Shown here piece after piece: positions 10,453 through 33,955 of a stretch of 33,955 nt of DNA. The DNA comes from Endomicrobiia bacterium (lineage in GTDB: Bacteria; Elusimicrobiota; Endomicrobiia; Endomicrobiales; Endomicrobiaceae): NCBI GenBank assembly GCA_009776745.1, contig WRNH01000003.1:30202-64156 (forward strand). The letters are read 5' to 3'. The position numbers and the translations under genes were made by a program. Every line of letters begins with the position of its first letter. Positions within the stretch are counted from its first letter, which is position 1. The notes beneath the pieces are model-generated. The model was not told the origin of the DNA. It worked only from the letters and a program-made list of their open reading frames with translations, and did not search any database.

Positions 10453-10454
10453 TT

Positions 10455-13400
10455 TTAATTTCTGCCTTCTATCGTGAAGGTAGATTCCGCGCCGGACGCG
10501 TTTATCGACGTGTCATATAACGGCGTAGCAGTTACGGCCGGGACTTTGAATGTCCCTTCGGAGGTAAATTTAACTCTATAGCTAAACTGTCCGCCTGAAG
10601 AATACACGGAGCCGTATAACAAAAGTCTGTCTTCCCTTATGTCATAGTAGTCAAGCGTGACGCCGCCGGAGGAATTTATTGAATCCGGCACGATGGTAAA
10701 ACCGCCCGGTAAAATATCCGTAATAGCCACGTTGGTTATTGTTTCGCCTAAAGAACGCGTTTCTATGGTAATCTCCATCTCATCGCCAAGTATGCCTTTG
10801 TCTTTGTCTTTCTTTGGCGGAGAAGTACGCCCCAGCGCTGTCTGCATATCGTCGCTCAGTATGTACGAATCAGCACGCGATATCCGCATGCCGTTTGCTG
10901 ACGGTTTTACTTCGCCTTTGTCAAAGCCCTGCTGCGTGATGACGTAATAGATGTTAGCGGAACTATCCTTTAATTTCACTTCAAACTCTTTAACTCCGTG
11001 CCCAAACGGAGCCTCAAGCATGCCAAGGCTGTTTTTGGCTAAGGTCAACTTTTGTCCGTTCGCGCGCACTTCAATGTCGCCGTCTTTGACGGTGTCAGTT
11101 TTTGAATAAGCGTAAAGCGCAAGCATGCCCGACGCCGATGTCATCGTATTATAACGCTTGGCGCTAATGTCTTCAAGCAGGCTTTTTATTATGTCGGACG
11201 CTTTCCGTTCTTTCATAAGTTCCGGAAAATATAAGCCTGCAATATAAATGTATTTGGCGTTTCTTGAAAAACTGGAGTCATAATCGTAATAATATCTGTA
11301 AGCTGAAGTTTCGGCATTATACTCTTTTATTATGCTTAAAGCCTTTGCGTCATTTTTAAGAAGTTTGTAAGCCGCGGCCATGTAAACCCCGGTCACGCTG
11401 CTTTTCCATTTGAGGTCATCTTTATTCAGCCAGTCTTCAAAGTTCATAAGAGCATTAGTCATAACAACGCCGTTTTTGGCTATCAGATAATGCGCATAAG
11501 CCGTGTTGCTTATGTCTCGCCCGTTGAAAGAACTGCGGTCTACATATTCCTTAGCCCATGACAAAGCTTTGGCTTTCATGTCTTTGGGAACATTGTAGCC
11601 CATTTCATCCGCTTCGGTAAGCATGTGGAAGGCGTATAGAGAAGGATATTCGCTGACCTCGCTTCCGCCGTCCCATAGCGAAAATCCTCCGCTTGCCAGT
11701 TGTCTGAATTTAAGCTTTTCAACCACGCGCTCGAAAGCTTCTTTCGCGCCGCCTTCGTTGCCGGATACTTTGTAGAAAACTATAGTAGGAAATATCTGGC
11801 TTGTGATCTGCTCCGTGCAGCCGTGCGGGAATTTTTCAAGAAACGCTCCCAGCCCTCCGGCCACCACAAGCGGGTTGGCGGAGAGAGCTATCGTATTTTT
11901 TGAAAACTGGTCATAGAGTTCTCTTGAGTCAAATTTTTTTATTTTTGCGCTGCCTTTTATTGAACCGTTATTTATCGTCACGCGCATCGCGCTTGCGGGA
12001 CGCACGCTGAGAGTGATTTTACGGGAAGCGGTTTCTTTGGGATTTGCAAGCTCGGCATCAAAAGATATTGTCGCATTGCCAAGCGTATTTCCGGCCTGCA
12101 CTTTAAAATACACGGTTTTTTCCTGGCCGTAAGGCACGTTCACGCTTTGCTTTTTTGCGCCTATCACCGACAGATTGTCGGACACGTTTATATTAACGCT
12201 GACATTGCCGTCTTTAGTGCCCTCTTTATTGTTTGATACTCTTAAACCGATGTTAAACGTGTCGCCCGGCGCGGCTGCTACAGGCCCACCTGCCGACAGT
12301 ATTAAAGGCGCGCGCACCAATACCTCTCTGTCTGCGCTTGAAACCGCGCTTTGCGACGCCGCAACAGCCATAACGCGGATCTGCCCGTTAAAATAATCAG
12401 GTACATCGTAAGAGTAAACGCCCGCATTCTGCGAAGCATCCAAAATACCGGACCAAAAGACTACGGGTTTTTCAGTTTTTCTTGCAAACGGGTTCAAGCC
12501 GGCTTCCAAAAGCGCGATCGCGGCTTCATAGTCTCCGCCTATGCCGTAAACTTCTTTTATAAGTCTGTTATCGGGCATAATAAGATCCCACATCCGGTAT
12601 GTTATTACGCCTAAGGCGGTTTTTCTAAAAAAATAGGATATGGGGCTGGGCAGCTTATATTTTGCCACCTGCAAAATGCCTTCGTTAACGCCGTAAATTA
12701 TAATTTTTGACGGAGCTGACGTTTTGTAAGAAATATCAAGCCTGTCGCCGGGTTTGACAAGTTCCGGCGTTCCAAGCGTGATCGCTGATATATGTTTTAC
12801 CGGCTTTATATTAAAGTGAGCTACCGCGTAGCTGTGTGGATTTGCGAGAAGTTCTTTGGAATCCATGCTTCTTAAAAACGAAACATTGACATATGCGCCG
12901 CCGGTAAGCTCTTCCGGCACTTTTATACTTTGCTCGGCGCTGTTGGTTGTTGTTTTAAACCATTTGTATGCGTATACTTTGTCTTTTTCTATGGTTATAA
13001 GTCCGGTGCCGGTAAAAGGCGCGGTTATGTTAAGTTTCAATACGCCGCCCTGTTCAATGGTGTCTTTTTCAAGGTTAAGTTTAAGTTCGACATTGCGTTC
13101 AAGGTCATAAGCTATGTTGGCATTGCCTGAGACAAAAAATTCAAGACGCATAACAACTTCGTCTTCTTTATTTACCATTTCAAGCGCGTACTGCCCGGGA
13201 TTTTTGGTGGGCAAATTATAAACGGAACCGTCTTTTTTAATATCAAAATCTTCAACGCTGAAAAGAGACTCGTTTAATACGGACTGATAACGGAAAGAAT
13301 TTCCGTACCTGTCTCTGACCGGCACCGACACATACTGCTGGCTAAGAATTCTTATCTTAAACTGGCCGGGTTCTATTTCGTTAAGCTCCGGATCTATGGC

Positions 13401-16160: not shown

Positions 16161-16203
16161 AAAAGCTCCTCATTTATATATTAGACCAACCAAATAATAT
16201 GAG

Positions 16204-16232
16204 ATTGTAGGAATTACAACATTGATTGTCAA
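16204..16232 (-). promoter_or_regulatory. Sigma70-type promoter for the alpha-2-macroglobulin/PBP1C operon
   Basis: On the minus strand a consensus TTGACA (16227-16232) is followed, after exactly 17 bases, by TACAAT (16204-16209). Transcription should begin near 16197, giving a leader of about 37 bases before the alpha-2-macroglobulin start. Confidence 0.82.
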
Positions 16233-16235
16233 ATC

Positions 16236-16274
16236 AAAAAGGCAGTTAGCAGTCACTCTGCTCACTGCCTTTTT
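16236..16274. promoter_or_regulatory. Hairpin between two divergent promoters
   Basis: AAAAAGGCAG (16236-16245) pairs perfectly with CTGCCTTTTT (16265-16274), and inner AGCAG/CTGCT extends the fold. It has the shape of a bidirectional terminator but lies between two divergent promoters, filling the gap between their -35 boxes; its last two T are the first two bases of the rightward TTGACA. The centre can be read as heptamers (GCAGTTA, GCAGTCA). Possible roles are an operator, an insulator that stops stray transcripts, or an inserted repeat. Confidence 0.7.
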
Positions 16275-16301
16275 GACACTTTCTTCAATTTAAAATATAA
16301 T
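16273..16301 (+). promoter_or_regulatory. Consensus sigma70 promoter for PBP1A
   Basis: TTGACA (16273-16278), a 17-base spacer, and TATAAT (16296-16301) give a perfect consensus promoter. Initiation near 16308 would leave a short leader of about 28 bases containing the GGAG ribosome-binding site. Strong constitutive expression is expected unless the adjoining hairpin binds a regulator. Confidence 0.9.
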
Positions 16302-16335
16302 CATTCCTATACATTATTTCTAACCGGAGATTTAA

Positions 16336-18453
16336 ATGAGTGCAAAAATTTCGTTAAAAAAATTGATTTTTCTATTTTTCCTGATAGCCGTGCCTTTGTG
16401 CATAATTATCGGCGCGAGAATTTTAAAAAAAATGACGGAAGACTTGCCTTCAATAAGCCAGCTTGAAAATTATACGCCGAACCTTTCGACAAAAATCTAC
16501 GACAAAGACAATAACTTAATCGCCGAATTGTTTACGGAAAGAAGGATGCTTGTTCCCATAAACGAAATACCCATAGACCTGCAGAACGCTTTTATATCCA
16601 TTGAAGACAATGACTTTTTTTATCATTGGGGCGTTTCGACTAAAGGCATAGTGCGCGCGGTTTCCAGAATAGCGCTCAGAAGAAAAGTCGCGGAGGGCGG
16701 ATCGACGATAACGCAGCAGCTTGCCAAGACGATATTTTTAACTCCCGAAAAAACATTGAAACGCAAAATAAAAGAACTTCTGCTTACCACCCAGCTTGAA
16801 AAAGATTATTCAAAAGATGAAATCCTCCAATTTTATATTAATCAGATTTATTTCGGAAGCGGCGCGTACGGAGCCCAGTCGGCCTCAAAAGTTTATTTTA
16901 ATAAAAATGTTGAAGATATAAACCTTGCGGAATGCGCAATGCTTGCCGCGATACCGAAATCGCCGAATTATTATAATCCTTTTAAAAATACACAAGCCGC
17001 CCAAACAAGAAGAAACCTTGTTCTGGCTAAAATGAGGCAGCTCGGATACATAACTTCGGAACAGGAACAGGAAGCTGCGGCAATCCCCCTCCCAGTAAAA
17101 GAAGAAACGCCGAAACGCGAATCCGGACATTACTTTGTCGAATTTTTGAGAATAATGCTTGAACCGAAATACGGGACAAACGTTTTGCTTAGAGGAGGAT
17201 TGTCGATTTACACGACTCTTGATATGCAGGTGCAGACAGCCGCGGAAAAAGCGCTTGAGGAAGAGTTGGAAAAATTCGACGCGAACAGGATCAAAGCATT
17301 TGAAAAATCCGGCAAGGAGCCCGTCAAAGTTCAAGGTTCCATCATAGCCATTGATATAAAAACCGGAGCAATAAGAGCGATGGTCGGCGGAAGAGATTTT
17401 AAAGAAACCCAGTTCAACCGCGCAACGCAGGCAAAACGCCAGCCGGGCTCGTCTTTTAAACCTTTTGTTTATCTTGCAGCGCTTGAAGCGGGTCTCAATG
17501 CCGCGACATTGCTTGACGACGAACCGATGGTTTTCGTTTATAACGGCGCCGCATGGGATTTGGTTTCAAGAGATATCAGGGCTTTGGAAGACATAGCCGA
17601 AGAAATGTCCGAAACGGATCTTACGGATACTCAAAAAATATGGACTCCCGTCAACTACGGAGGAAAATACAGAGGACCGGTAACTTTAAGAACGGCTCTG
17701 GCATTATCCATAAACACATGCGCCATACAGACGATCATGCAGGTCACTCCGCGCAAAGTCATTCAGGCGGCAAGAAATCTCGGCATTTCAACTCCGCTTA
17801 CAAGCTCTCTTTCTTTGGCATTGGGCTCAAGCGACGTTACATTGCAGGAGATGGTTTCGGCATATTCGACATTTGCTTCCGGCGGCGTAAAAACGACTCC
17901 TTACGTAATAACAAAAATCACCGATAAAGACGGACGTATTTTAGAACAAAATCTTCCGCAGCAAAAAGAAGTTTTATCTCCCCAAACGTGTTACGTTATG
18001 ACTAATATGCTTAAATCTGTAGTTGAAAGAGGAAGCGGATGGCACGCGAAAAATCTCGGCAGGCCGTGCGCCGGAAAAACCGGAACCACAAACGAAGGCG
18101 GCGACGTCTGGTTTATAGGATATACTCCGCAGCTTGCGGCTGGCGTGTGGATAGGATATGACGACCGTTCAATATCTTTGGGAGACAAAGTTACCGGCGG
18201 TTCATTAGCCTGCCCGATATGGACAAAATTTATGAAAGAAGCTTTAGCCGGAAAACCTATAGTTGATTTTAGCCAGCCTGACAATATCGACTGGGCTCTG
18301 GTAGACCCCCAGACAGGATTGCTCGCATTAAGCAAAACCCCGGGAGCATTTTTGGAAGCCTTTATAAAAGGGACAGCCCCTAAACAATATTACGATCAGG
18401 CCATTCCCGACTCAAAAAGAATAGATCTTACAATCGAGGAAGAAGGGTTTTAA
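16336..18453 (+). CDS. Penicillin-binding protein 1A (bifunctional class A PBP)
   Basis: This 705-residue protein has an N-terminal membrane anchor (9-27). The GT51 domain has Glu90 in SIEDNDFFYHWGV and the GGSTITQQLAK motif (121-131). The transpeptidase domain has S372-x-x-K375 in PGSSFKP, SIN at 458-460 and KTG at 581-583. It builds and crosslinks peptidoglycan at the outer face of the inner membrane. The length is typical of Gram-negative PBP1A-like enzymes. A CCGGAG site precedes the ATG and a perfect consensus promoter lies just upstream. It is transcribed divergently from the alpha-2-macroglobulin/PBP1C operon, so the main synthase and the putative repair synthase share a regulatory spacer. 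Assignment to the 1A branch rather than another class A branch rests on overall layout. Confidence 0.93.
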   Translation: MSAKISLKKLIFLFFLIAVPLCIIIGARILKKMTEDLPSISQLENYTPNLSTKIYDKDNNLIAELFTERRMLVPINEIPIDLQNAFISIEDNDFFYHWGVSTKGIVRAVSRIALRRKVAEGGSTITQQLAKTIFLTPEKTLKRKIKELLLTTQLEKDYSKDEILQFYINQIYFGSGAYGAQSASKVYFNKNVEDINLAECAMLAAIPKSPNYYNPFKNTQAAQTRRNLVLAKMRQLGYITSEQEQEAAAIPLPVKEETPKRESGHYFVEFLRIMLEPKYGTNVLLRGGLSIYTTLDMQVQTAAEKALEEELEKFDANRIKAFEKSGKEPVKVQGSIIAIDIKTGAIRAMVGGRDFKETQFNRATQAKRQPGSSFKPFVYLAALEAGLNAATLLDDEPMVFVYNGAAWDLVSRDIRALEDIAEEMSETDLTDTQKIWTPVNYGGKYRGPVTLRTALALSINTCAIQTIMQVTPRKVIQAARNLGISTPLTSSLSLALGSSDVTLQEMVSAYSTFASGGVKTTPYVITKITDKDGRILEQNLPQQKEVLSPQTCYVMTNMLKSVVERGSGWHAKNLGRPCAGKTGTTNEGGDVWFIGYTPQLAAGVWIGYDDRSISLGDKVTGGSLACPIWTKFMKEALAGKPIVDFSQPDNIDWALVDPQTGLLALSKTPGAFLEAFIKGTAPKQYYDQAIPDSKRIDLTIEEEGF

Positions 18454-23506: not shown

Positions 23507-25486
23507 TTATTTGTACTTTCTCCACAAATCCCTATACATGAAATAAGATTTTCTGAGCTGCCTTTTGAATTGACTGTCCGCGCCATCACCAAGACTGCAT
23601 AATCCAAACCATTCTTCATATGCACGCCCGTCAAGAAAAGCTCCGCCCATCTGTGAGTGTGTCGCATGTATAAACGGGTCTGAATCTCCTCCCGCTTTCC
23701 ACCATTCGTCGCTCCATTCAAAAATTACGCCGCCTAAAGCATTTCCTACGCCGCCTGCGACTCCCGCCAGATTATCTTCAATATCTTCCCAATTTCCTTT
23801 ATGATAAGAAGCCTGTCCTTCTTCTGCGCGCGCCATAGACCATCCCGCCGCATACGCGGGACATCCGTATTCCGTGATTACGACAGGCTTGCCGAAATTA
23901 TTCATAATGTCTTTCCATATATTGCCAAAACCCGCTTCTCCTCTGTAGGCGTTTGTCCCGAAAATATCCAGATCCGGAGCATATTTAACGCAGTAATCAA
24001 GAAAAGCCAAATCGCCGTTAGATATTGCCACAGGCCTGTTTTGCAAGTCAAGCGATTTTATAAGCAGTACGCATTCATTGACGAGCGTGTAATACTCTTC
24101 CGGTTTTTGGTCGGCATTGGTGGAACCCGCATCGCCGTAATTATTCTCATTGCCCAAAACCCACATAAGCACATAAGGCTCTTCTTTAAATATTTCTACC
24201 GTTGTTTTAACGCTTTCAAGTATTTTTTTTCTGTGTTCGGGATTAGAATAATCCGTGCCTTCTTCCCACGTTGCACCAGTATCGGCAACATACATCCCCG
24301 CCAAATTGCCGACCATATACATAAATCCGTATTTTTCATATCCTTCGTTCAAAAGTTCTTTGTTAAGCACATGCGCGTGATAAAGCCTTAAAGTGTTTAT
24401 GCCCATCTCTTCCATAAGAGCAAAATCGCCTACGGGTTTTTCGTCGGGATCTTGCATATCGTTTCTGTTGGCGTCGACCCATGCGTCAAACGGGCCGTCA
24501 ATGCGTCCGTTATTATTTATATCTTCAAAAGAAAAATCTTTTATATTGTTAAATTCGCCTACGGGTCTTACGCCGACCCTGTTCGGATTATAAGTCATTG
24601 CTCTTACGACATAAGGTTTGCCGTCGACCGTAAGCTGAAAATGATTATTCTCGTACTGCACAAGTTTCACTTTTCCGGTTCCGGTTGTTTTTTTGACTGG
24701 AATATTTTTTAAATCGATATGCTGTCTTTCAAAGTCTTTCGCGTCCGCCGGAACAAGTTTGCCCGGATTTATTTCGTAAACGTCATTTCTTATATCATTA
24801 TCAAAAGCATTGTGTACGGTTATATCCGCGCCTTCAAGTTTTATGCCGAGCTCGGGATGTTTTTTCGTAAGAAATTTAATTTTCGATATGCAGACAGGAG
24901 CAATATACCACGGCGTTTTCCATTCTGTCCAGCCGACGGCTTTAGGAAAAAATACAAGGCAGGCATAGTAAGCTTTTATTGCGTGTTTGATATTGCCGGA
25001 TCTTTCAAGAGCAAGCGCCGTAAAATAAAGTTTTACGCCGGGATCTTCCCTTGTAGTCGCCCATTTGTAAAAATTTGCCTGAAAATCGTCCGTATTTACA
25101 AAATTCCAGTGCAGACCGTCAAGTTTATTTTCTTCAGCCAGTTTTTTATATTCGGGAGATTCGTAAACGCTTTGCGTATTGGGAAAGATGCCTTCTCCCG
25201 ATGCCGCTCTTAAAGCCTCGGAATCTTTAACGGCATATCTGTATTTGTCTGTGCCGATATTTTGAAATTCGCCGTATTTTTCATAATCTACCCATTCATC
25301 CGTGCCGGGATCATAAATTGTAAAAGGTTCCGCAGGAATATAAACCATGGTTTTATTATGATCTTCCGCCGCCTTTAAAATAGCCGTAAGGTATTCATCC
25401 TCGACCGGCTCTTTAGTATTTTTCGTACCCGAGCACGAAAAAAGACACACTGCCGCCGCAATCAACAACATAAACTTAATTTTCAT
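23507..25486 (-). CDS. Lipoprotein with clan-A glycosidase-like TIM barrel (paralog 1)
   Basis: This 659-residue lipoprotein has a lipobox ending at Cys18 (LFSC). Residues about 30-270 are a helical region of unknown family with a TPR-like A-L-x-x-S-G-N-x-K-H-A-I-K-A-Y-Y stretch (159-174). From about 280 a domain like glycoside hydrolase clan A begins (F-Q-L-T-V-D-G-K-P-Y-V-V-R). The probable acid/base is Glu447 in WVLGNEN and the nucleophile Glu539 in VITEYGCP. Two calcium-loop-like insertions follow one another: D-I-N-N-N-G-R-I-D (322-330) and D-A-N-R-N-D (338-343). It may cut or transfer a glycan at the cell surface; the substrate is unknown. AGAGGGG precedes the ATG. The paralog lies 104 bp upstream on the same strand. 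Confidence 0.78.
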   Translation of the reverse strand: MKIKFMLLIAAAVCLFSCSGTKNTKEPVEDEYLTAILKAAEDHNKTMVYIPAEPFTIYDPGTDEWVDYEKYGEFQNIGTDKYRYAVKDSEALRAASGEGIFPNTQSVYESPEYKKLAEENKLDGLHWNFVNTDDFQANFYKWATTREDPGVKLYFTALALERSGNIKHAIKAYYACLVFFPKAVGWTEWKTPWYIAPVCISKIKFLTKKHPELGIKLEGADITVHNAFDNDIRNDVYEINPGKLVPADAKDFERQHIDLKNIPVKKTTGTGKVKLVQYENNHFQLTVDGKPYVVRAMTYNPNRVGVRPVGEFNNIKDFSFEDINNNGRIDGPFDAWVDANRNDMQDPDEKPVGDFALMEEMGINTLRLYHAHVLNKELLNEGYEKYGFMYMVGNLAGMYVADTGATWEEGTDYSNPEHRKKILESVKTTVEIFKEEPYVLMWVLGNENNYGDAGSTNADQKPEEYYTLVNECVLLIKSLDLQNRPVAISNGDLAFLDYCVKYAPDLDIFGTNAYRGEAGFGNIWKDIMNNFGKPVVITEYGCPAYAAGWSMARAEEGQASYHKGNWEDIEDNLAGVAGGVGNALGGVIFEWSDEWWKAGGDSDPFIHATHSQMGGAFLDGRAYEEWFGLCSLGDGADSQFKRQLRKSYFMYRDLWRKYK

Positions 25487-25543
25487 TATTTCCCCTCTGG
25501 CAAAGATATATATTCATATTATTTTTATGCGGATACGGCTTTC

Positions 25544-25578
25544 CTTTACCTTTTACTTATTACCTGTTACTTATTCTC
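25544..25578. repeat. Five-unit heptamer tract between the paralogs
   Basis: The tract reads CTTTACC, TTTTACT, TATTACC, TGTTACT, TATTCTC in consecutive 7-base steps. It belongs to the same sequence type as the arms at 1654-1684 and 1835-1860. It lies in the spacer between the two tandem lipoprotein genes, without an obvious partner arm. Confidence 0.65.
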
Positions 25579-25590
25579 TTTTATTTACAT

Positions 25591-27627
25591 CTATTTGTAT
25601 TTTTTCCATAAATCTCTGTACGTAAAATACGCTTTTCTCAGCTGTCTTTTAAACGTCGAATCTTTTCCGTCTCCGAGGCCGACGATCCCGAACCATTCTT
25701 CATACCCGTAACCGTCCATAAAAGGCATTTCGGCATTACTTACTTCATCATGTTTAAACGGATCTGAGTCGCCCTCATTTTTCCACCATTCATCGCACCA
25801 TTCAAAAATCACTCCGCCCAAAGCGTTTCCCGCTCCGCCTTCCGCGCCTGCCATATTTTCTTCTATGTCGATCCAATTCCCCCTGTGATAAGAAGCCTGA
25901 CCTTCTTCCCGCCTTGCGGTCGTCCAGTCTTTAGCGTAGGAGGGGCATCCGTATTCGGTTATCAAAGCCGGCTTGCTGCTTTGTCTTGCGACTTCATTCC
26001 AGAAACTTCCGAAACCTGCTTCGCCTCTGTAAATATTAGCTCCGAAAATATCTATATCGGGACAATATTTTGCAAAATAATCAATAAACATAGTTTCGCC
26101 GTTAGAGATGATCACCGGCCTTTTTTGCGGGTCTAAAGATTTAATAAGTTTCGCGCAGTCATTAGCGAATTTATAATAAACTTCCGGATTGCCGTGAACA
26201 TTGTTTGAGCCCAGCCAGCTGAAATTATTTTCATTGCCCAGCACCCATGCCAGCACATAAGGCTCGTCTTTAAAATCTTTCATCATCTGCTCTATGCTTT
26301 CGATCATGGCTTTTTGACATACGGGATCGGAATAATCCGTTCCCGCCTCCCATCCGACTCCGTTATCTATCGCATACATCCCTATAAGATTTCCCATAAG
26401 ATACATAAATCCGTATTTTTCATAACCCGCTTTCAGCGCGTCTTTATTTAATCCTTTCGAATGATATATCCTTAAAGTATTTACGCCCATCTCTTTCATC
26501 AAAGCGAAATCGCCTACATTTTTTTCGTTCTTGCCCTGCTTCTCATTTCTGTTGGCGTCAACCCACGCTTCAAACGGAGCGTCTTGCAAACCGTTTTTAT
26601 TATAGTCGTCCCAAGTCCAAGCGCTGGTAACATTTACGTCTCCGGGTTCCGGGGAAAAACCGGAACTGTCAGGCCCGAAAGTCATTTTCATTATTTTTTC
26701 AGGCGTAAGGCCTACAAGATTCACAGCGTATGTTATTCCTCTTACAACATAAGGTTTATCGTCAAGCATAAGCTGGAAGTGATTGTTATTATACTCAACA
26801 AGTTTTATTCTTCCCTGCCCTGAAATTTTCTTGATCCCTGTTTTCGATAGATCGATATGCTTCCTTTCAAAATCCTTTGCCGTGTTCGGCACAAGTTTTC
26901 CGGGATTTACATAAAAGACGTCATTTCTGACATCAGCGTCATATATGTTTTCCGCGATTAGTTCTTCACCGACAAGTTTAACGCCTATCTCCGGATGTTC
27001 TCTCGTGAGATATTTGATTCTTGAAATGCATACCGGCGCTATATACCACGGGGTTTTATACTTGGTGTATCCGTATGAAGAAGGAAAGAAAACCAAACAG
27101 GCATAATAAGCTTTTACGGCATGTTTGTAATTTCCGGCCTTGTCCAAAGCATAAGCGGCAAAGTACAGTTTTACCGCAGGAGCTTCGGCGGCAATACACC
27201 ATTTATAAAAATCGAGCTGATAGTTGTCCGTATTAACAAAATTCCAGTGCGAGCCGTCAAGCTTATTTTCACTTTTAAATTTTTTGTAATCAGGCGAATT
27301 TTGGGCGCTGGTATTGTTGGGATAAACGCCTTCGCCTGAAGCCGTTCTCAAACCTTTGATATCTTTGACAGCATATTTGTAATCTTTTGTTCCTAAATTC
27401 TGAAACTCTCCGTATTTTTCGTAGTCAACCCATTCTTCCGTTCCGGCATCATAAATCGGAAAAGGTTTCGGATGAACATATATCATAGAATTATTATATT
27501 TTTCGGCTGCCGCAAGCATTTTTTGCAAATCACCCGTTTCTGCGCTGTTATTGTTTGCAATTTTTGCTCCGGAACACGAAGAAAGACATACTGCCGCCGC
27601 AAACAACAATGTAAATTTAATTTTCAC
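25591..27627 (-). CDS. Lipoprotein with clan-A glycosidase-like TIM barrel (paralog 2)
   Basis: This 678-residue paralog of the downstream gene has the same layout throughout: lipobox to Cys18 (LSSC), a helical region, then the barrel with Glu466 in WVLGNEN and Glu558 in LITEYGCP as likely catalytic residues. It has about 20 extra residues (near 305-335) before the calcium-loop-like string D-Y-N-K-N-G-L-Q-D (341-349), followed by D-A-N-R-N-E. Both catalytic acids and the Tyr-Arg-Gly-Glu-Ala-Gly-Phe-Gly motif are kept, so both copies are probably active, perhaps on different substrates. Translation starts at GTG (27625-27627), supported by an AGGGGGAT site. The gene begins 21 bp after the membrane protein gene, indicating one operon. 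Confidence 0.78.
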   Translation of the reverse strand: MKIKFTLLFAAAVCLSSCSGAKIANNNSAETGDLQKMLAAAEKYNNSMIYVHPKPFPIYDAGTEEWVDYEKYGEFQNLGTKDYKYAVKDIKGLRTASGEGVYPNNTSAQNSPDYKKFKSENKLDGSHWNFVNTDNYQLDFYKWCIAAEAPAVKLYFAAYALDKAGNYKHAVKAYYACLVFFPSSYGYTKYKTPWYIAPVCISRIKYLTREHPEIGVKLVGEELIAENIYDADVRNDVFYVNPGKLVPNTAKDFERKHIDLSKTGIKKISGQGRIKLVEYNNNHFQLMLDDKPYVVRGITYAVNLVGLTPEKIMKMTFGPDSSGFSPEPGDVNVTSAWTWDDYNKNGLQDAPFEAWVDANRNEKQGKNEKNVGDFALMKEMGVNTLRIYHSKGLNKDALKAGYEKYGFMYLMGNLIGMYAIDNGVGWEAGTDYSDPVCQKAMIESIEQMMKDFKDEPYVLAWVLGNENNFSWLGSNNVHGNPEVYYKFANDCAKLIKSLDPQKRPVIISNGETMFIDYFAKYCPDIDIFGANIYRGEAGFGSFWNEVARQSSKPALITEYGCPSYAKDWTTARREEGQASYHRGNWIDIEENMAGAEGGAGNALGGVIFEWCDEWWKNEGDSDPFKHDEVSNAEMPFMDGYGYEEWFGIVGLGDGKDSTFKRQLRKAYFTYRDLWKKYK

Positions 27628-27648
27628 AGCAATCCCCCTATTTCAAAA

Positions 27649-28311
27649 TTAACGAATAATATACAGCAGCAAAACCTGCGCTGCCAGATTTACTGCATAT
27701 AAAGCAAAAACCGTTTTTAAATTATTCGACGGAAAAAGTTTGTTTACTGCATAATCGTTCATCTGAACGTATACGCATTCGCTTATTGCGCGGATGTCTT
27801 TTTTGTTTATTCCGGGCGACATATTTTTTAAAAAATCCACAAACGGAAGGCGGTTTATAAAAAAACTGACTGCCTTTTTTACCGGCCACGGAGCATTTTT
27901 GTCATAAATAACGCCGGCATCAGCCCCTATGTCAAAAGCCTTATTTATTTTTTCCTGAAAATTGTCGTCAGCAGCATACCGTTCGGCTATTACAAAACAA
28001 ACCGTTTTAAAAAACGGAGTCATTTTTTTATATCCGGCTTTTGTAACGGCAATAATTACGTATTTTTGTATGAAAAAAAATATCGCTGCCGGAAACAATG
28101 CCGCAAAAATAAGCAGCAATACAAAAAACAAAATATTATACGCGCCGTAAATATCAATGCGTACAAATCTGATTATTCCCAAAACGGCAAAAATCATGTT
28201 TGTAAAAATAACCGCAAGCGCAAATGCCATACACTTTCCTATTTTAGGTCCCAGTTCAGGCGCTTCTTCTTTGGAAAGTTTAAAATTAAGGTTGACGTTA
28301 AAAGCGTTCAT
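27649..28311 (-). CDS. Unrecognised integral membrane protein
   Basis: This 220-residue protein matches no family I recognise. Two long hydrophobic helices lie at about 27-50 and 58-87 and a third at about 199-218. Between them is a soluble region (about 88-195) rich in Lys, Asp and Asn. It heads an apparent operon with the two glycosidase-like lipoproteins and may help place or regulate them, but this is inferred from position alone. AAAGGG precedes the ATG. The promoter at 28396-28424 and a leader hairpin lie upstream. Confidence 0.75.
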   Translation of the reverse strand: MNAFNVNLNFKLSKEEAPELGPKIGKCMAFALAVIFTNMIFAVLGIIRFVRIDIYGAYNILFFVLLLIFAALFPAAIFFFIQKYVIIAVTKAGYKKMTPFFKTVCFVIAERYAADDNFQEKINKAFDIGADAGVIYDKNAPWPVKKAVSFFINRLPFVDFLKNMSPGINKKDIRAISECVYVQMNDYAVNKLFPSNNLKTVFALYAVNLAAQVLLLYIIR

Positions 28312-28337
28312 TCAATACCCTTTAACTGCAGCGTGGA

Positions 28338-28374
28338 GTTTGGAGTGCAAAGAGCTGAGTAAAGCTCTCCAAAC
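28338..28374. repeat. Leader hairpin of the lipoprotein operon
   Basis: GTTTGG (28338-28343) pairs with CCAAAC (28369-28374), and AGAGCT (28351-28356) pairs with AGCTCT (28363-28368) around a six-base loop, with a one-sided bulge. It lies in the transcribed leader between the promoter and the membrane protein start. Confidence 0.6.
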
Positions 28375-28395
28375 TTCTCTTTTCACTTTGTCTTT

Positions 28396-28424
28396 ATTAT
28401 AAGTTTTATTGACTGAAAAAGCAA
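28396..28424 (-). promoter_or_regulatory. Sigma70-type promoter for the lipoprotein operon
   Basis: On the minus strand TTGCTT (28419-28424) is separated by exactly 17 bases from a perfect TATAAT (28396-28401). Initiation near 28389 gives a leader of about 78 bases containing the hairpin at 28338-28374. Confidence 0.7.
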
Positions 28425-28432
28425 AGAAGACG

Positions 28433-28517
28433 ACAGATAATAGAGAAGAGAGAATAGATACGACAAAGACCGCCCTTTTTTTTCTCTATTCTCTATTCTC
28501 TATTATTTATTATCTGT
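28433..28517. repeat. Long hairpin built of heptamers
   Basis: The right arm is five consecutive heptamers, TTCTCTA three times, then TTATTTA and TTATCTG (28482-28516). The left arm (28433-28460) is the approximate reverse complement, in units such as AGATAAT, AGAGAAG, AGAGAAT. A T-rich loop separates them. It lies between the divergent promoters of the lipoprotein operon and the radical SAM gene. Confidence 0.75.
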
Positions 28518-28600
28518 ATTTAAAAATACTTCTTGCAAAACCAGTAAAAATATAATACATTTGTATTCTAAAAACAAATATATGCTTTTAAGGAATAAAA

Positions 28601-29941
28601 ATGGAAATTTTTGATAAATTACAAATTTTGGCGGACTCTGCTAAATATGACGCAGCCTGCACTTCAAGCGGAGTAGCAAACAATTCTGCTGCAAGCAGCG
28701 GCATGGGGAGCACATGCCTTGCCGGAGTATGCCACAGTTTTGCCGCTGACGGGCGCTGCATATCCCTTTTAAAAGTCCTTCAGACAAATATATGTATATA
28801 TGACTGCAAGTACTGTTTAAACAGAAAATCAAATGCCGAAATAAAAAGAGCTGTTTTCAAACCAGAAGAGCTTGCGGATTTGACCATACAATTTTATAAA
28901 CGCAATTATATAGAAGGCCTGTTTTTAAGTTCCGGCGTAATAAAAAATCCGGATTACACTTGCGAGCTTATGATCCGCACTTTAATGATTTTACGCAATG
29001 AATATAATTTTAACGGCTATATTCACGCTAAAGCAATTCCCGGAGCTGACAATAAACTTTTACAGCAGCTCGGCATGCTTGCCGACAGAATGAGCGTAAA
29101 TATAGAAATGCCTTCTCAAAGCAGCCTTGCTCTTTTAGCGCCCGACAAAAGTAAAAACTCCATACTGGCGCCGATGAATTTCATAAAAGAAAGCATTTCT
29201 GAAAATTGCAGGGATTTAACCGTATATAAAAAGGCTCCAAAATTCGTCCCTGCCGGACAAAGCACGCAGATGATCATAGGCGCTTCGCCGGAAACCGACA
29301 GTCATATTTTAAAACTTACGGAAAGCCTTTATAAAAAATATAAACTCAAAAGAGTTTTCTTTTCAGCTTATATTCCTGTGTCTGACGACGCTATGCTGCC
29401 GTCATTGGATACCAGTCCGCCTTTGCTCAGGGAACACCGCCTTTATCAGGCTGACTGGCTTATGAGATTTTACAAGTTTGGCGCAAGTGAAATTTTAGAC
29501 GATAATTCGCCGAATTTTAATCCGTTCATGGATCCCAAATGCAATTGGGCGGTAAATCACCCGGATTTTTTTCCTGTGGAAGTAAACAGGGCATCGTATG
29601 AAGAACTCCTTCGCGTGCCCGGCATAGGCGTGAGAAGCGCTCAAAGAATAATAGTTGCCAGACGCTGCAACACTTTGGATTTTTTGTCATTAAAAAAATT
29701 GGGTGTTGTCTTAAAACGCGCGCAGTATTTTGTCACATGCAAAGGCAAAAAAAATGACGGTTTGATAATAAAACACGATAATATTTTAAGATCTTTGATG
29801 TCGAAAAAAGAGTTTGACATGTACAAAGACATGAATTACCCGAAACAGCTGGATTTTATTGAAGCTGAAAAACTTTTAAACGGAGGACATATCAAGGGGA
29901 CGGAGGAAATGACATTAATGTCACTTCCTCCGTCCCCTTGA
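28601..29941 (+). CDS. Putative DNA modification/repair radical SAM protein (TIGR03916-like)
   Basis: This 446-residue cytoplasmic protein carries a C-x3-C-x2-C cluster motif (Cys65, Cys69, Cys72) that binds the radical SAM [4Fe-4S] cluster, with extra Cys at 39, 44 and 53. A C-terminal helix-hairpin-helix (about 328-355, VNRASYEELL then VPGIGVRSAQRI) suggests DNA binding. This layout and the following partner gene match a radical SAM family known to co-occur, and sometimes to be linked, with uracil-DNA-glycosylase-like proteins; its reaction is unknown. The last 16-17 residues (430-446) are encoded by the 56-bp palindrome and are probably not ancestral. AAGGA precedes the ATG; TTGCAA (28533) with TACATT (28556) at 17 bases is a possible promoter. 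The partner gene starts 10 bases later. Confidence 0.88.
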   Translation: MEIFDKLQILADSAKYDAACTSSGVANNSAASSGMGSTCLAGVCHSFAADGRCISLLKVLQTNICIYDCKYCLNRKSNAEIKRAVFKPEELADLTIQFYKRNYIEGLFLSSGVIKNPDYTCELMIRTLMILRNEYNFNGYIHAKAIPGADNKLLQQLGMLADRMSVNIEMPSQSSLALLAPDKSKNSILAPMNFIKESISENCRDLTVYKKAPKFVPAGQSTQMIIGASPETDSHILKLTESLYKKYKLKRVFFSAYIPVSDDAMLPSLDTSPPLLREHRLYQADWLMRFYKFGASEILDDNSPNFNPFMDPKCNWAVNHPDFFPVEVNRASYEELLRVPGIGVRSAQRIIVARRCNTLDFLSLKKLGVVLKRAQYFVTCKGKKNDGLIIKHDNILRSLMSKKEFDMYKDMNYPKQLDFIEAEKLLNGGHIKGTEEMTLMSLPPSP

Positions 29942-29944
29942 TAT
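29889..29944. repeat. 56-bp near-perfect palindrome at the radical SAM 3' end
   Basis: The sequence is self-complementary about the 29916/29917 boundary, with one mismatch (29909/29924) in 28 pairs. The arm contains AAGGGGACGGAGGAA. It supplies the last codons and the TGA stop (29939-29941) of the radical SAM gene and ends seven bases before the next start codon. Palindromes with a GGGGACGGAGG core are known as dispersed REP-like repeats in various bacteria. Confidence 0.92.
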
Positions 29945-29951
29945 AGCAGCA

Positions 29952-30704
29952 ATGGCAAATTTTATTAATCGCAATATAATCTATTATTACGACGGAACTT
30001 TTGACGGATTTTTATGCTGTGTATTTGAAAGTTTCACGCGCAAAGAAAAACCTGCGGATATCGTAAGCGAAAAAAATATTCAGCCCGGTCTGCTTGAGCG
30101 ATACCGCATAATGACGGATGCAGAAAAAGCCGGACGCGTGAGGAAATCCATACCGAAAGAAATGGGAAGCGAAGCGCTGCCTTTTTTGGAAAGCGCTCTG
30201 ATGACATGCCTTGAACATAAAGAAATGCATATGCTTGATTTTATGCGGCTGGGATATAAAACCGGACCGAAAGTTATGAATATGCTTGCAAACGATACGG
30301 TGCTGACTCTCACAAAAGCCGTAAAACAAATGACGCACGAAGCGCATAAATTTACGGGATTTGTCCGTTTTTCGGTTTACGAAGGTTTGCTGGTTTCAAA
30401 AATAAAACCGAAGAACTTCGTTCTTCATATTCTTGCGCGGCATTTCGCCGAAAGAATGCCGGACGAAAAGTTTGTGATTTATGATGAAACCAACAAATTT
30501 ATCTGCGCTTATGCCAAAGGCAGATACGTTATTTCAGAATCTGACGAAGTGAATATTCCGAAAGCTGACGCCGAAGAGCAGGCTTACAGGGATTTATGGA
30601 AGATGTTTTATGACACAATCGCCGTTAAAGGACGCGAAAATCCAAAATGCCGCATGACGCTCATGCCTAAAAGATATTGGAGCAATATGACGGAATTTCA
30701 GTAA
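29952..30704 (+). CDS. Putative DNA metabolism protein, radical SAM partner (TIGR03915-like)
   Basis: This 250-residue protein opens with Y-Y-Y-D-G-T-F-D-G-F-L-C-C-V-F-E, the typical start of the TIGR03915/DUF4130 family, and contains the F-V-R-F-S-V-Y-E-G region and a C-terminal A-E-E-Q-A-Y-R-D-L-W-K-M-F-Y stretch that also fit. Members are almost always encoded next to the radical SAM gene seen here and may be fused to a uracil-DNA-glycosylase-like domain; this copy is not fused. Its function is unknown but probably concerns DNA. No Shine-Dalgarno precedes the ATG: the palindrome occupies that place, so translation may depend on ribosomes finishing the upstream gene. Confidence 0.85.
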   Translation: MANFINRNIIYYYDGTFDGFLCCVFESFTRKEKPADIVSEKNIQPGLLERYRIMTDAEKAGRVRKSIPKEMGSEALPFLESALMTCLEHKEMHMLDFMRLGYKTGPKVMNMLANDTVLTLTKAVKQMTHEAHKFTGFVRFSVYEGLLVSKIKPKNFVLHILARHFAERMPDEKFVIYDETNKFICAYAKGRYVISESDEVNIPKADAEEQAYRDLWKMFYDTIAVKGRENPKCRMTLMPKRYWSNMTEFQ

Positions 30705-30802
30705 CGGCAGAGAGCGGTTTGGGAGCGGCAAAGCCGCAATATCCGGCTGCTCGCAAAGCGCGCTAAATAATTCGCCCGCTATTTACAATGCTATTTTTTT
30801 AC

Positions 30803-30938
30803 TATAGCAGACTAACTTAATATAGTCTCGTTTATCAGAAATGATTTTCGAGGAAATTTTAATTTTTTTATGACGCGCATACCCGAAGAAATTAAAATTT
30901 AACTGAGAAATGGGACTATATTAAGTTAGTTTGCTATA
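30803..30938. mobile_element. MITE-like element with 36-bp terminal inverted repeats
   Basis: The ends 30803-30838 and 30903-30938 are inverted repeats matching at 32 of 36 positions (core ACTAACTTAATATAGTC). The outermost TA at each end could be a TA target duplication, as made by IS630/Tc1-mariner transposases. The inner AAATTTTAATTT/AAATTAAAATTT lengthens the fold. There is no coding capacity. It lies between the convergent DNA-metabolism and diaminopimelate dehydrogenase genes and may also act as a terminator. The preceding 98 bp hold only a small GCGGC-AAA-GCCGC hairpin (30725-30737). Confidence 0.75.
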
Positions 30939-30976
30939 AAATCAACATCCCTGCGGATTGAAAGATAACTTCAGGC

Positions 30977-31873
30977 TTATACTAACTTTCTTATTAATTC
31001 TTCTTTATCTCCGTAAAGCATGTCTATCATCGGTATTTCTATCATAGTATAACATCCGGGCTGCTGTTTCATTGAGGCCCTTGCGGCCGCGACAAGAATC
31101 TGTGCGGTAAGAGCCGGATTATTTATTTTCATTTTAAATTCAAATATCTGGTTATGCGTTTTTCCTGAAACGCCCTTTCTTACCATATGTACGCCGTGTC
31201 CGGTGTCTTTCAAAGCGTCGACATCGTCAACTTTTATCACATGCGTTTCATCGTGAACAAAATACTCGTCGGATTTTATCTTTTTTGCTATTTCGTCAAA
31301 ATTATAACCGTCTTCAATTTCAATATAAACCATTCTGCGGTGCACGGATGCGCCTGACGGTATAGTCATTGACAAAGAGTTTTTTACGCCCTTTATCGCT
31401 TTAACGGCTGCGGAATGCCCCATAGACATTCCCGGACCAAAATTTGTATATGTTATTCCTTTAGGAGCTGCGATTTCAATAAGAGCGCGCACAACCGAAT
31501 CCGATCCGGGATCCCAGCCTGCTGAAAGTATGCTGACTTTACCGGACTCTTTTGCCGCTTTATCAAGTTTTTCGCGCACCGCAGCAATATTTTGATGTAT
31601 ATCAAACGAATCTACGGTGTTTAGTCCGCTTTTAAGACACTCTTCGGCAATCTCCGGTATATCGCGCGAAGGTCTGCAAAGAATAGCGACATCAGGTTTT
31701 ATTTTAAGTCCGGAAAGTTTTTTTACAATCTGTATGCCGGCTAATTCTGCATTGTTTTTTGAGTCGGCATGTTCGCTTATTACTCCCGCAATCTCAAAAT
31801 CTTTCGCGCAAATCAAAGCTTCAAAAACATATTTTCCAATATTGCCGTATCCTGCTATTGCCGCTTTAATCAT
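30977..31873 (-). CDS. ddh: meso-Diaminopimelate dehydrogenase
   Basis: This 298-residue NADPH-dependent enzyme makes meso-diaminopimelate from tetrahydrodipicolinate in one step, feeding lysine and peptidoglycan synthesis. The Rossmann motif GYGNIGK lies at 8-14. The family strings S-A-G-W-D-P-G-S-D-S-V, F-G-P-G-M-S-M-G-H-S, H-R-R-M-V-Y-I-E and N-P-A-L-T-A-Q-I-L-V-A-A-A-R-A are all present, and the length is typical. GAAGGAG lies 11 bases before the ATG, a slightly long spacing. It is 119 bp downstream of the hydrolase gene on the same strand. Together with the PBP genes it supports a DAP-type cell wall. Confidence 0.94.
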   Translation of the reverse strand: MIKAAIAGYGNIGKYVFEALICAKDFEIAGVISEHADSKNNAELAGIQIVKKLSGLKIKPDVAILCRPSRDIPEIAEECLKSGLNTVDSFDIHQNIAAVREKLDKAAKESGKVSILSAGWDPGSDSVVRALIEIAAPKGITYTNFGPGMSMGHSAAVKAIKGVKNSLSMTIPSGASVHRRMVYIEIEDGYNFDEIAKKIKSDEYFVHDETHVIKVDDVDALKDTGHGVHMVRKGVSGKTHNQIFEFKMKINNPALTAQILVAAARASMKQQPGCYTMIEIPMIDMLYGDKEELIRKLV

Positions 31874-31964
31874 TGTTAAACACGCTCCTTCTTTATAATT
31901 TACTTTAATGCCGCGTCCTTAAAACAGTTGTCATTACAGCAACCGGCGCTTGCCGTTTGCAGCT

Positions 31965-31992
31965 GCCGTTCTCCATTCGCTATTCTCCGCCG
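31965..31992. repeat. Short heptamer tract
   Basis: Four 7-base units, GCCGTTC, TCCATTC, GCTATTC and TCCGCCG, run up to the stop codon of the hydrolase gene. They belong to the heptad-phased class seen in other spacers of this window. Confidence 0.45.
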
Positions 31993-32862
31993 TTATTTCT
32001 CTGTCGTATAACTATATCCTTTTCCGGCCTTTTTCACTTTTGCCGCGCCGGGAAAAGGAAGGTGCGTGCCGGCTATCAAAAGTTTTTCTTTGGAGGCTTT
32101 TTCAAGAAATTGTTTTCTGGTTTTTGCTGATTTCTCGGCGTCAATGTCAAAACGTCCGCTTATATCCGGCCTCGGAAACTGCAAGTCGGCGCAATGAATT
32201 AAATCCGCGATAAATAACAATTTATTTTCACCGGACTCAAGTAAAAAAACCGCTTGGCCCGGAGTATGCCCGCTCGCATCTAACGCTTTTATGTTTGAAG
32301 TTACCATATCATCATAATTAAAAATTTTTACGGAATCGCCGTATGCCGAAACGGTCTGCTTTGCCATATCAAAATTTTCCTGCCTTGACGGAAACTCTTC
32401 CGCCGATTTGTCGGAAAGCCAGAAATCATATTCGTTTTTTCCGATTTTCACCGCGGCATTAGGAAAAACGATTTTATCATCTTTGACAAGACCGCCGATA
32501 TGATCTCTGTGCATATGCGTAATAAGCACAATCGTTATGTCTTCCGGTTTTACATTAAGTTTTTCCAATCCTTCCATAAGCCCTTTTCCAAAACCTGTGT
32601 CGATAAGAACCGTTTCTTCGCCGTCTTTTATCAAATATGTCATAACGGCCGTCGGGGCTTTTCCGGAAGGAACGTATTTTTTCAAAATCTTTTCATCGGC
32701 GCCTTCAAAAACAGAAAGATCGCGTTCGCCGACAGAATCGGCAATTGCCCAAACTTCGACATTGCCTATTTTATAGAGTTTCGGTTCATTTGCCTGCTGG
32801 GCAAAAACCGCTCCAAAACAAAACATTATGACGCAGCATACTGCTAAACTTTTCTTTATCAT
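31993..32862 (-). CDS. Secreted metallo-beta-lactamase-fold hydrolase
   Basis: This 289-residue protein has a signal peptide cleaved about after residue 21 (AVFA before QQ), so it is periplasmic. The metal-binding motif H-x-H-x-D-H is at His116-His121 (THMHRDHIGG); His199 (ASGHTPG), Asp220 and His267 complete a two-metal site. The fold is shared by class B3-like beta-lactamases, quorum-quenching lactonases and other hydrolases; the substrate cannot be told from these motifs. AAAAGGAG precedes the ATG. It lies 35 bp downstream of metA on the same strand and is probably cotranscribed with it. Confidence 0.85.
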   Translation of the reverse strand: MIKKSLAVCCVIMFCFGAVFAQQANEPKLYKIGNVEVWAIADSVGERDLSVFEGADEKILKKYVPSGKAPTAVMTYLIKDGEETVLIDTGFGKGLMEGLEKLNVKPEDITIVLITHMHRDHIGGLVKDDKIVFPNAAVKIGKNEYDFWLSDKSAEEFPSRQENFDMAKQTVSAYGDSVKIFNYDDMVTSNIKALDASGHTPGQAVFLLESGENKLLFIADLIHCADLQFPRPDISGRFDIDAEKSAKTRKQFLEKASKEKLLIAGTHLPFPGAAKVKKAGKGYSYTTEK

Positions 32863-32897
32863 GCTTTTCTCCTTTTAACTCTTCACTCTGATATTAG

Positions 32898-33812
32898 CTA
32901 TCTTTCAACATAATCATACGGAGTTCTTTGGTACACAAAATAATTAAGCCAGTTATAAAACAGAAGATTGGCGTGCGCTTTCCACGTTATAACGGGTTTA
33001 TTATCAGCATTATTTTCGGGAAAATAATTTACAGGTTTTTCTATGGCAAGCCCTTTATCCAAATCCCGGAAATATTCATTCGCGAGAGTATTTCTGTCGT
33101 ATTCGGAATGTCCTGTTATGAAAAAATTTTTTGAATCTTTGTCGCACGCCATATATATGCCGGCATCTTTTGAACGGCTGAGAATAAGAAGCCCGTCATT
33201 GCGCTCCACCGCATTTTCGTCCAGACCCGTATGTCTTGAATGAGGAGCGTAAAAAATATCGTCAAATCCGTCAAGAAGCAGATGCCCCCGTACCGTTTTT
33301 TTATGCTCAAAAACGCCGAACATCTTTTTATCCAATATATGCTTTTTAATTCCGTAATGATAGTACAAAGCCGCCTGCGCACCCCAGCAAATATGGAAAG
33401 TCGAAAAAACATTCGTTTTCGACCATTCCATAACGGCGCACAGTTCCCGCCAATAATCCACTTCTTCAAATTCCAGCATTTCCACGGGAGCGCCCGTTAT
33501 GATCAATCCGTCAAAATGTTTGTCTTTGACGTCTTCAAACGTTTTGTAAAATTTAAGAAGATGTTCGGCCGGAGTATTTTTTGATGTATGGCTTGCAGTT
33601 TGAAGAAGTTCGACGTCAACCTGTAAAGGCGTATTTCCTATGAGACGCAAAATTTGCGTTTCCGTCTCAATCTTTTTAGGCATCAAATTAAGTATGGCTA
33701 TTTTCAGCGGACGGATATCCTGCATCATGGCGCGATTTTCGTCCATAATAAATATATTTTCTTCGTTTAAAATTTTGTGCGCCGGTAAATCTTTCGATAC
33801 TTTGATCGGCAT
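32898..33812 (-). CDS. metA: Homoserine O-acyltransferase MetA (probably O-acetyltransferase)
   Basis: This 304-residue enzyme acylates homoserine in methionine synthesis. The catalytic residues align exactly with E. coli numbering: Cys142 in FHICWGA, His235 and Glu237 in GHSEYD. Residue 111 is Glu (GAPVE), the residue reported to favour acetyl-CoA, whereas succinyl-CoA enzymes such as E. coli MetA have Gly. The product is therefore probably O-acetylhomoserine despite the usual annotation as succinyltransferase. The frame extends eight codons upstream to a TTG, but the ATG at 33810-33812 has AAAGGAG before it and matches the family start MPIK. The hydrolase gene follows after 35 bp. No SAM-riboswitch pattern is visible in the 143 bases upstream. 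Confidence 0.93.
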
Positions 33813-33872
33813 AATTACAAACTCCTTTAAAGACAATTAATAAATACGGGGCTCTCTAAAAACCCTACTTTT

Positions 33873-33938
33873 GTCATTGCGGGCTTGACCCGCAATCTAT
33901 GCTTCACGACGAGATTGCGGCTCGGAGGCCGCAATGAC
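33873..33938. repeat. REP-like inverted pair, second type
   Basis: GTCATTGCGGG-type sequence (33873-33898) and its inverted relative (33912-33938) face each other around a short centre with CACGACGAG. Each unit is itself a small hairpin (GCGGG...CCCGC and GCGGC...GCCGC). Adjacent, on the outer side, CTCTCTAAAAACC (33852-33864) is the exact reverse complement of the 13 bases at 1822-1834. It lies upstream of metA, outside any gene seen here. Confidence 0.7.
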
Positions 33939-33955
33939 GACACTGAAAATACAGG

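Follow-up and report, generated by a model that had tools for sequence, protein, structure and literature searches.

Two adjacent paralogous genes on the minus strand of a 33,955-nucleotide stretch of Endomicrobiia bacterium DNA (assembly GCA_009776745.1, contig WRNH01000003.1, positions 30,202 to 64,156; hereafter the window, meaning the whole stretch analyzed) encode predicted lipoproteins, WA and WB, that are probably secreted retaining endo-beta-1,3-glucanases whose products feed a beta-1,3-glucan phosphorylase of glycoside hydrolase (GH) family GH161. Comparing sequences across genomes, we put the probability of this reading at roughly 0.6. WA (23507..25486, minus strand) has 659 residues, and WB (25591..27627, minus strand), which begins at a GTG codon, has 678. 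A preliminary description drawn from the letters of the window had marked the pair as tandem glycosidase-like reading frames at exactly these coordinates, and the two prove to be 60% identical from end to end. Each protein has an N-terminal domain, here called the N-domain, followed by a triosephosphate isomerase (TIM) barrel with a pair of calcium-type loops. Labels beginning with G, L and C denote genomes, loci and contigs, respectively.

Family assignment of the catalytic barrel

The barrel region, residues 270-659 of WA (23510..24679, delimited by Pfam, profiles and the structure model) and 25594..26820 for WB (delimited by Pfam and a PDB sequence match), both on the minus strand, matches the Pfam model Glyco_hydro_2_C (43 bits, cut-off 21), and does so in both proteins. 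Conservation was counted over 70 of 75 sequences, consisting of 36 full-length members and 34 other relatives, with five fragments or duplicates dropped. In WA numbering, N446 is kept in 36 of 36 full-length members and 33 of 34 other relatives, while E447 and E539 are each kept without exception in both sets (36/36 and 34/34), so that the TIM barrel with both catalytic glutamates described from the window alone is borne out across the family. Compared by sequence, the barrel is a TIM barrel of clan GH-A. In alignments to PDB entries 6pal and 9oro, the three residues fall on N136, E137 and E220 of BuGH158, a retaining endo-laminarinase in which all three are described as essential (available text of PMC7157763). 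E447 of WA (24146..24148) is accordingly the predicted acid/base, and E539 (23870..23872), which aligns also with E224 of GH157, the predicted nucleophile; their counterparts in WB, placed by alignment, are E466 (26230..26232) and E558 (25954..25956), all four codons lying on the minus strand.

Searches by sequence and by fold lead to the same small group of families. The best PDB sequence matches of WB are GH158 enzymes, at 3.4e-10 (over 145 residues) and 3.1e-9, and a profile of 16 sequences (A1) finds GH158 at 1.5e-18 and 4e-15. The barrel profile A3, built from 23 sequences, finds GH158 at 1.9e-25 and 5.2e-21, GH157 at 2.3e-18 and GH2 at 3.8e-17; its leading match to GH158 spans 188 profile positions and that to GH157 positions 40-357 of 390, and both are remote. 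An AlphaFold2 model of WA, with a mean predicted local distance difference test score (pLDDT) of 84.3 and a predicted template modeling score of 0.88, places GH158 first by Foldseek (2.0e-11), with a GH2 glucuronidase nearly equal at 2.3e-11. By VIA-align it places GH157 first (Z 28.0, root-mean-square deviation 2.7, 301 residues, 23% identity), with human beta-glucuronidase, a GH2 enzyme, tied with it at Z 27.8. Because the matches to GH157 and GH158 are remote, WA and WB are filed in neither family; a comparison covering Pfam and the families that have solved structures points to a separate GH157/GH158-like lineage. Since both of the nearest solved families are endo-beta-1,3-glucanases, beta-1,3-glucan is favored over other glycans as the substrate.

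With GH158 (BuGH158, 6pal; GH158(Pro), 9oro) the two proteins have in common the clan GH-A barrel, the Asn-Glu pair and the second Glu in register, and the best PDB sequence match, but identity between WA and GH158 in the fold alignments is only 15-20%. BuGH158 carries a C-terminal Ig-like domain (available text of PMC7157763), whereas WA ends with the barrel, with no domain after it in the model, and WB likewise has none. In the beta8 region BuGH158 has FLW where WA and WB have FEW-x-DEWWK, and both the N-domain and the paired calcium-type loops lie outside the part that aligns. GH157 (LaGH157, 9fz9 and 9g4n), the top match by VIA-align, resembles WA and WB in that the nucleophile is followed by the signature D-x-WWK ... 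EEW; its E224, the residue mutated in 9g4n, is the one that aligns with E539, and the part of it that aligns includes neither an N-domain nor paired calcium-type loops. One GH157 enzyme is described as acting on linear beta-1,3-glucan (available text of PMC10229575). The order of N-domain, calcium-type loops and barrel differs from that of solved GH157 and GH158 enzymes, in agreement with the non-standard architecture that the preliminary description had claimed.

Association with GH161

In another contig of the same genome (C34), in genome G014 and in others, genes for these enzymes stand in an operon-like row: GH161, two to three N-domain enzymes, a short barrel-only enzyme, and an OmpA-family protein of about 940 residues. 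The GH161 assignment is strong in length as well as in score, the linked gene of about 1070 residues matching GH161 over its whole length; the 1075-residue product in G014 matches a PDB GH161 phosphorylase at 1.2e-226 over residues 18-1064. The G014 row, in what is almost certainly the culturable species Endomicrobium proavitum, is the full operon; it also encodes a DUF5683 protein and small secreted proteins that match CBM_4_9 or jelly-roll models weakly. Bacterial GH161 genes elsewhere accompany glucosidases and ABC transporters (available text of PMC6484121); the partners here, an N-domain enzyme, an OmpA-family protein and CBM-like proteins, are unlike those of such PapP-type systems. At locus L053, GH161 is separated from the enzyme gene by genes for a sugar-type ABC binding protein and two permeases, and a GH5 cellulase-type gene comes after the enzyme gene. 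In the Omnitrophota locus L010 the neighboring genes encode GH94 and GH116 enzymes and an MFS sugar transporter.

At G014 locus L048 (130-3693), the OmpA-family gene is followed by genes for the DUF5683 protein and for four small paralogs that are secreted or anchored in the membrane; three of the four have weak or no matches to CBM_4_9, 3-keto-disaccharide hydrolase and choice-of-anchor J models.

In a first sample of 60 genomes, the genome of the window included, the enzyme is found strongly in 29 and weakly in two more, GH161 in 29, and both in 27. GH161 lies on the same strand within 5 kb of the enzyme in 13 of these 27 genomes, and within 300 bp in 10. A phylum-wide sample of 198 Elusimicrobiota genomes with completeness of 80% or more contains 42 genomes with the N-domain and 34 with GH161: 33 have both, 9 the N-domain alone, 1 GH161 alone, and 155 neither. 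Counted by genus (69 genera), 20 have the N-domain, 15 GH161 and 14 both. Fisher values are 3.4e-28 and 3.4e-9, computed ignoring shared descent. Named loci led to 18 genomes, of which 11 have a GH161 match, one of them weak (2.6e-6), and both Omnitrophota genomes with the N-domain (those of L010 and L012) have GH161.

One group of small genomes, g8 (0.6-1.3 Mb), which we infer from genome size to be the endosymbiont genus Endomicrobiellum, departs from this distribution: most of its listed members are without the N-domain, and no g8 genome in the phylum sample has GH161. Four g8 genomes do have the N-domain, and two of these copies, in G123 (contig C16) and G152 (contig C39), are broken by stop codons, as if the enzyme were in the process of being lost.

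Proposed function and alternatives

In the pathway we propose, WA and WB would be secreted and lipid-anchored and would cut beta-1,3-glucan, a polymer of fungal walls and callose, outside the cytoplasm. The loops may hold calcium and give shape or rigidity to the cleft on its beta1-alpha1 side, and the N-domain may help to hold the substrate or a partner. An ABC-type sugar transporter would import the resulting oligosaccharides, which a cytosolic GH161 enzyme would phosphorolyse to glucose 1-phosphate. Characterized GH161 needs oligosaccharides with a degree of polymerization of 3 or more, and its phosphorolysis releases a sugar 1-phosphate (available text of PMC6484121). For a fermenter, this mode of cleavage would save ATP.

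Several observations weigh against this assignment. At the window itself, no glycan-degradation gene, no GH161 and no transporter lies beside WA and WB. The linked glycan genes to be looked for according to the preliminary description are present in relatives and at the C34 locus of the same genome, as GH161, OmpA-family and CBM-like genes, but not at the locus from which the description was made. In 14 of the 27 first-sample genomes that have both genes, GH161 is distant or lies on a different contig, the N-domain enzyme occurs without GH161 in 9 of 42 phylum genomes, and GH161 is missing from most of the divergent barrel-only relatives found beyond Elusimicrobiota and Omnitrophota. Shared descent and joint loss in reduced genomes inflate the co-occurrence. 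The specificity of GH-A barrels, moreover, changes readily, and the structural matches to GH2 glucuronidases are hardly weaker than those to GH157 and GH158.

The strongest alternative, although we consider it doubtful, is a catabolic GH-A hydrolase acting on some other glycan, such as a beta-1,4- or mixed-linkage glucan, a mannan or a uronide, with the tie to GH161 reflecting shared regulation only. The GH5 cellulase-type gene of L053 and the GH94 and GH116 genes of L010 would suit such an enzyme, as would the presence of GH2 glucuronidases and a GH5 mannanase among the close structures. The GH2 beta-glucuronidases and beta-galactosidases have in common with WA and WB the Glyco_hydro_2_C barrel model and reach similar VIA-align Z scores, but only that barrel model is matched: by Pfam, WA and WB have none of the N-terminal sugar-binding and Ig domains of GH2. 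The two families that lead the barrel profile, like the top VIA-align match, are beta-1,3-glucanases, and GH161 is the most frequent linked enzyme in the loci read, both of which argue against another substrate.

A different use of the same polymer seems to us quite improbable: the proteins would be GH72-like beta-1,3-glucan transglycosylases that remodel the cell's own envelope glucan together with the OmpA-family and CBM-like proteins, GH161 then being synthetic or recycling. WA passes the Pfam GH72 model PF03198 (27.3 against a cut-off of 25.9), as does the divergent relative L020 (31.6), and the operon does include an OmpA-family protein and secreted CBM-like proteins, while beyond the N-domain enzymes and GH161 there is no obvious degradative set in Endomicrobiaceae. 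Set against this, WB has no PF03198 match at E<=1, the short paralog P0005 falls below the cut-off (24.0 against 25.9), and the ABC transporter and GH5 gene of L053 and the GH94, MFS and GH116 genes of L010 point to catabolism. GH72 has no entry among the 60 best PDB matches of the barrel profile or among the VIA-align matches listed, which excludes nothing. That the proteins are non-catalytic glucan-binding or scaffold proteins, with the barrel kept as a binding site, has a very small chance, for while several copies per genome and an extra domain would be compatible with binding roles, each residue of the catalytic Asn-Glu pair and the second Glu persists in 69 or all 70 of the sequences counted, which binding without catalysis would not require.

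A fuller proposal, which we put forward tentatively and at less than even odds, is that these proteins may form a GH-A family that is new and intermediate between GH157 and GH158, in which an N-domain of new fold would feed beta-1,3-glucan into a calcium-braced cleft, and which with GH161, OmpA-family and CBM-like proteins would make up an Elusimicrobiota glucan-utilization system, serving free-living Endomicrobia as a source of fermentable substrate and lost as lineages became endosymbionts of gut flagellates. If true, free-living members possess a system dedicated to beta-1,3-glucan, mostly lost in reduced genomes, and with it a concrete energy source from before the switch to host sugar phosphates; the proposal would also add a lineage of enzymes whose barrel falls between GH157 and GH158 and whose N-domain is unexplained. 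The operon is present in E. proavitum, which can be cultured, so that both growth and enzyme activity are open to experiment. A 2024 comparative genomics study describes Endomicrobiaceae as sugar fermenters (available text of PMC11257099); a word search of that available text returned no occurrence of "glycoside hydrolase" or "glucan". Our literature search did not find GH161 and GH158 together, nor GH161 together with the stem Elusimicrobi-; that stem does occur with "glucan phosphorylase" in two papers and with laminarin in six.

The N-domain and the calcium-type loops

The N-domain comprises about 240 residues, a mix of helices and strands, at residues 29-268 of WA (24683..25402, from alignment A2 and the structure model) and at 26824..27546 for WB (alignment A2), both on the minus strand. 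Modeled alone it gives a confident fold, with a mean pLDDT of 89.1. Pfam finds no family in the WA domain and, in that of WB, only an MIT match far below cut-off; the best PDB sequence match has an E-value of 0.011, none reaching 0.001, and the fold search likewise yields no match at 0.001. The preliminary description, which had set this region outside any recognized family, is upheld in this respect. A known repeat or binding domain was considered and rejected: the best Foldseek match has an E-value of 1.2, with many TPR proteins among the matches, and the VIA-align Z of 7.1 is in the uninformative range. A TPR-like helix pair is possible at about residues 95-200 of the model.

Among the 60 genomes of the first sample, the N-domain occurs in 29, within open frames of at least 343 residues, and none was evident in a protein without a barrel. 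In the 198-genome sample, a shorter N-domain frame is found in G115 (224 residues), besides the broken copies in G123 and G152. Omnitrophota members have an extra N-terminal part, fused in L010 (4513-7140); in L012 (833-1441) it is apparently a separate gene of 203 residues with a weak TPR match.

Two consecutive motifs, D-x-N-x-N-G-x-x-D and D-x-N-x-N-x-x-x-D-x-x-E, occupy the segment of the barrel that joins strand beta1 to helix alpha1. In an EF-hand-like ligand pattern, D-x-[DN]-x-[DN] is followed by D at position 9 and E at position 12. In WA, loop 1 is DINNNGRID (residues 322-330, 24497..24523) and loop 2 is DANRNDMQDPDE (residues 338-349, 24440..24475), both located in the family alignment; in WB, the aligned loop 1 is DYNKNGLQD (residues 341-349, 26581..26607) and loop 2 occupies residues 357-368 (26524..26559), with Gly at position 9 in place of D9 and thus one ligand missing. 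All four loops are encoded on the minus strand. Over the 36 full-length members, loop 1 keeps D1 in 35, N/D3 in 36, N/D5 in 35 and D9 in 35, with Tyr, Phe or Leu at position 12; loop 2 keeps D1 in 36, N/D3 in 36, N5 in 34, D9 in 31 and E12 in 34. Loop 1 is present in 16 of the 34 other relatives and is a gap in the remaining 18, which marks the insertion as specific to this lineage and its short paralogs. Of the calcium-loop insertions first described, then, the conserved loops stand, but the strings are two adjacent elements of one insertion and are not scattered. Pfam reports no EF-hand family match in WA or WB. The title of GH2 entry 6d8g refers to a calcium-binding mutant of Bacteroides uniformis beta-glucuronidase 2, so calcium on an enzyme of this kind is not unprecedented; a search for literature on calcium in the B. 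uniformis glucuronidase found nothing useful.

Paralogs and genomic context of the window

Both proteins begin with a signal peptide followed by Cys18, in the context LFSC in WA and LSSC in WB. By the lipobox pattern, WB fits the strict form and WA the loose form only. Just 4 of the 36 full-length family members have a strict lipobox and 7 a loose one, so lipidation is not a family trait.

The genome (2.29 Mb in 130 contigs), whose closest named relatives are Endomicrobium and other Elusimicrobiota metagenome-assembled genomes, encodes, besides WA and WB, two full-length copies and one short copy on contig C34. In a phylogenetic tree, WA groups with a copy from genome G002 (support 100/99), while WB branches apart inside the same clade of five. 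Since WA is closer to the G002 copy than to WB, the two are not recent sister duplicates, and a recent tandem duplication at the window is rejected; the suggestion that the duplication reflects divided substrates finds no evidence here. An apparent second copy of WB on contig C79 was also rejected: positions 1-7941 of C79 are 100% identical to window positions 26015-33955 (7,941 bases), and the window ends where its contig, C3, ends, so this is an assembly overlap, with C79 continuing C3, rather than a duplication.

The 220-residue membrane protein WM (27649..28311, minus strand) lies 21 bp upstream of WB and by position is possibly co-transcribed with it. Homologs occur only in G003 and G004, two of the four other genomes of the same genus; G055 has in addition a weak match that is interrupted. 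The homolog in G004 adjoins the radical-SAM and DUF4130 genes that also neighbor WM, and no glycosidase lies in the 16-kb stretches around the homologs in G003 and G004. WM was on these grounds rejected as a part of the system; described at first as heading the operon, it belongs instead to the neighboring radical-SAM locus. The radical-SAM and DUF4130 pair of the window (28601-30704) is 87-93% identical to the G004 pair beside the WM homolog. Inverted repeats occur at 28433-28517, upstream of WM, and at 29852-29981, at the end of the radical-SAM gene.

A scan for promoter-like sites gave chance levels and one for terminator-like sites gave 10 against 5.2 expected; neither was used. A phosphoglucomutase gene lies far from WA and WB, at 211-1632. 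Between these regions, at 8113-18453, two penicillin-binding protein genes flank a gene for a bacterial alpha-2-macroglobulin of 1901 residues.

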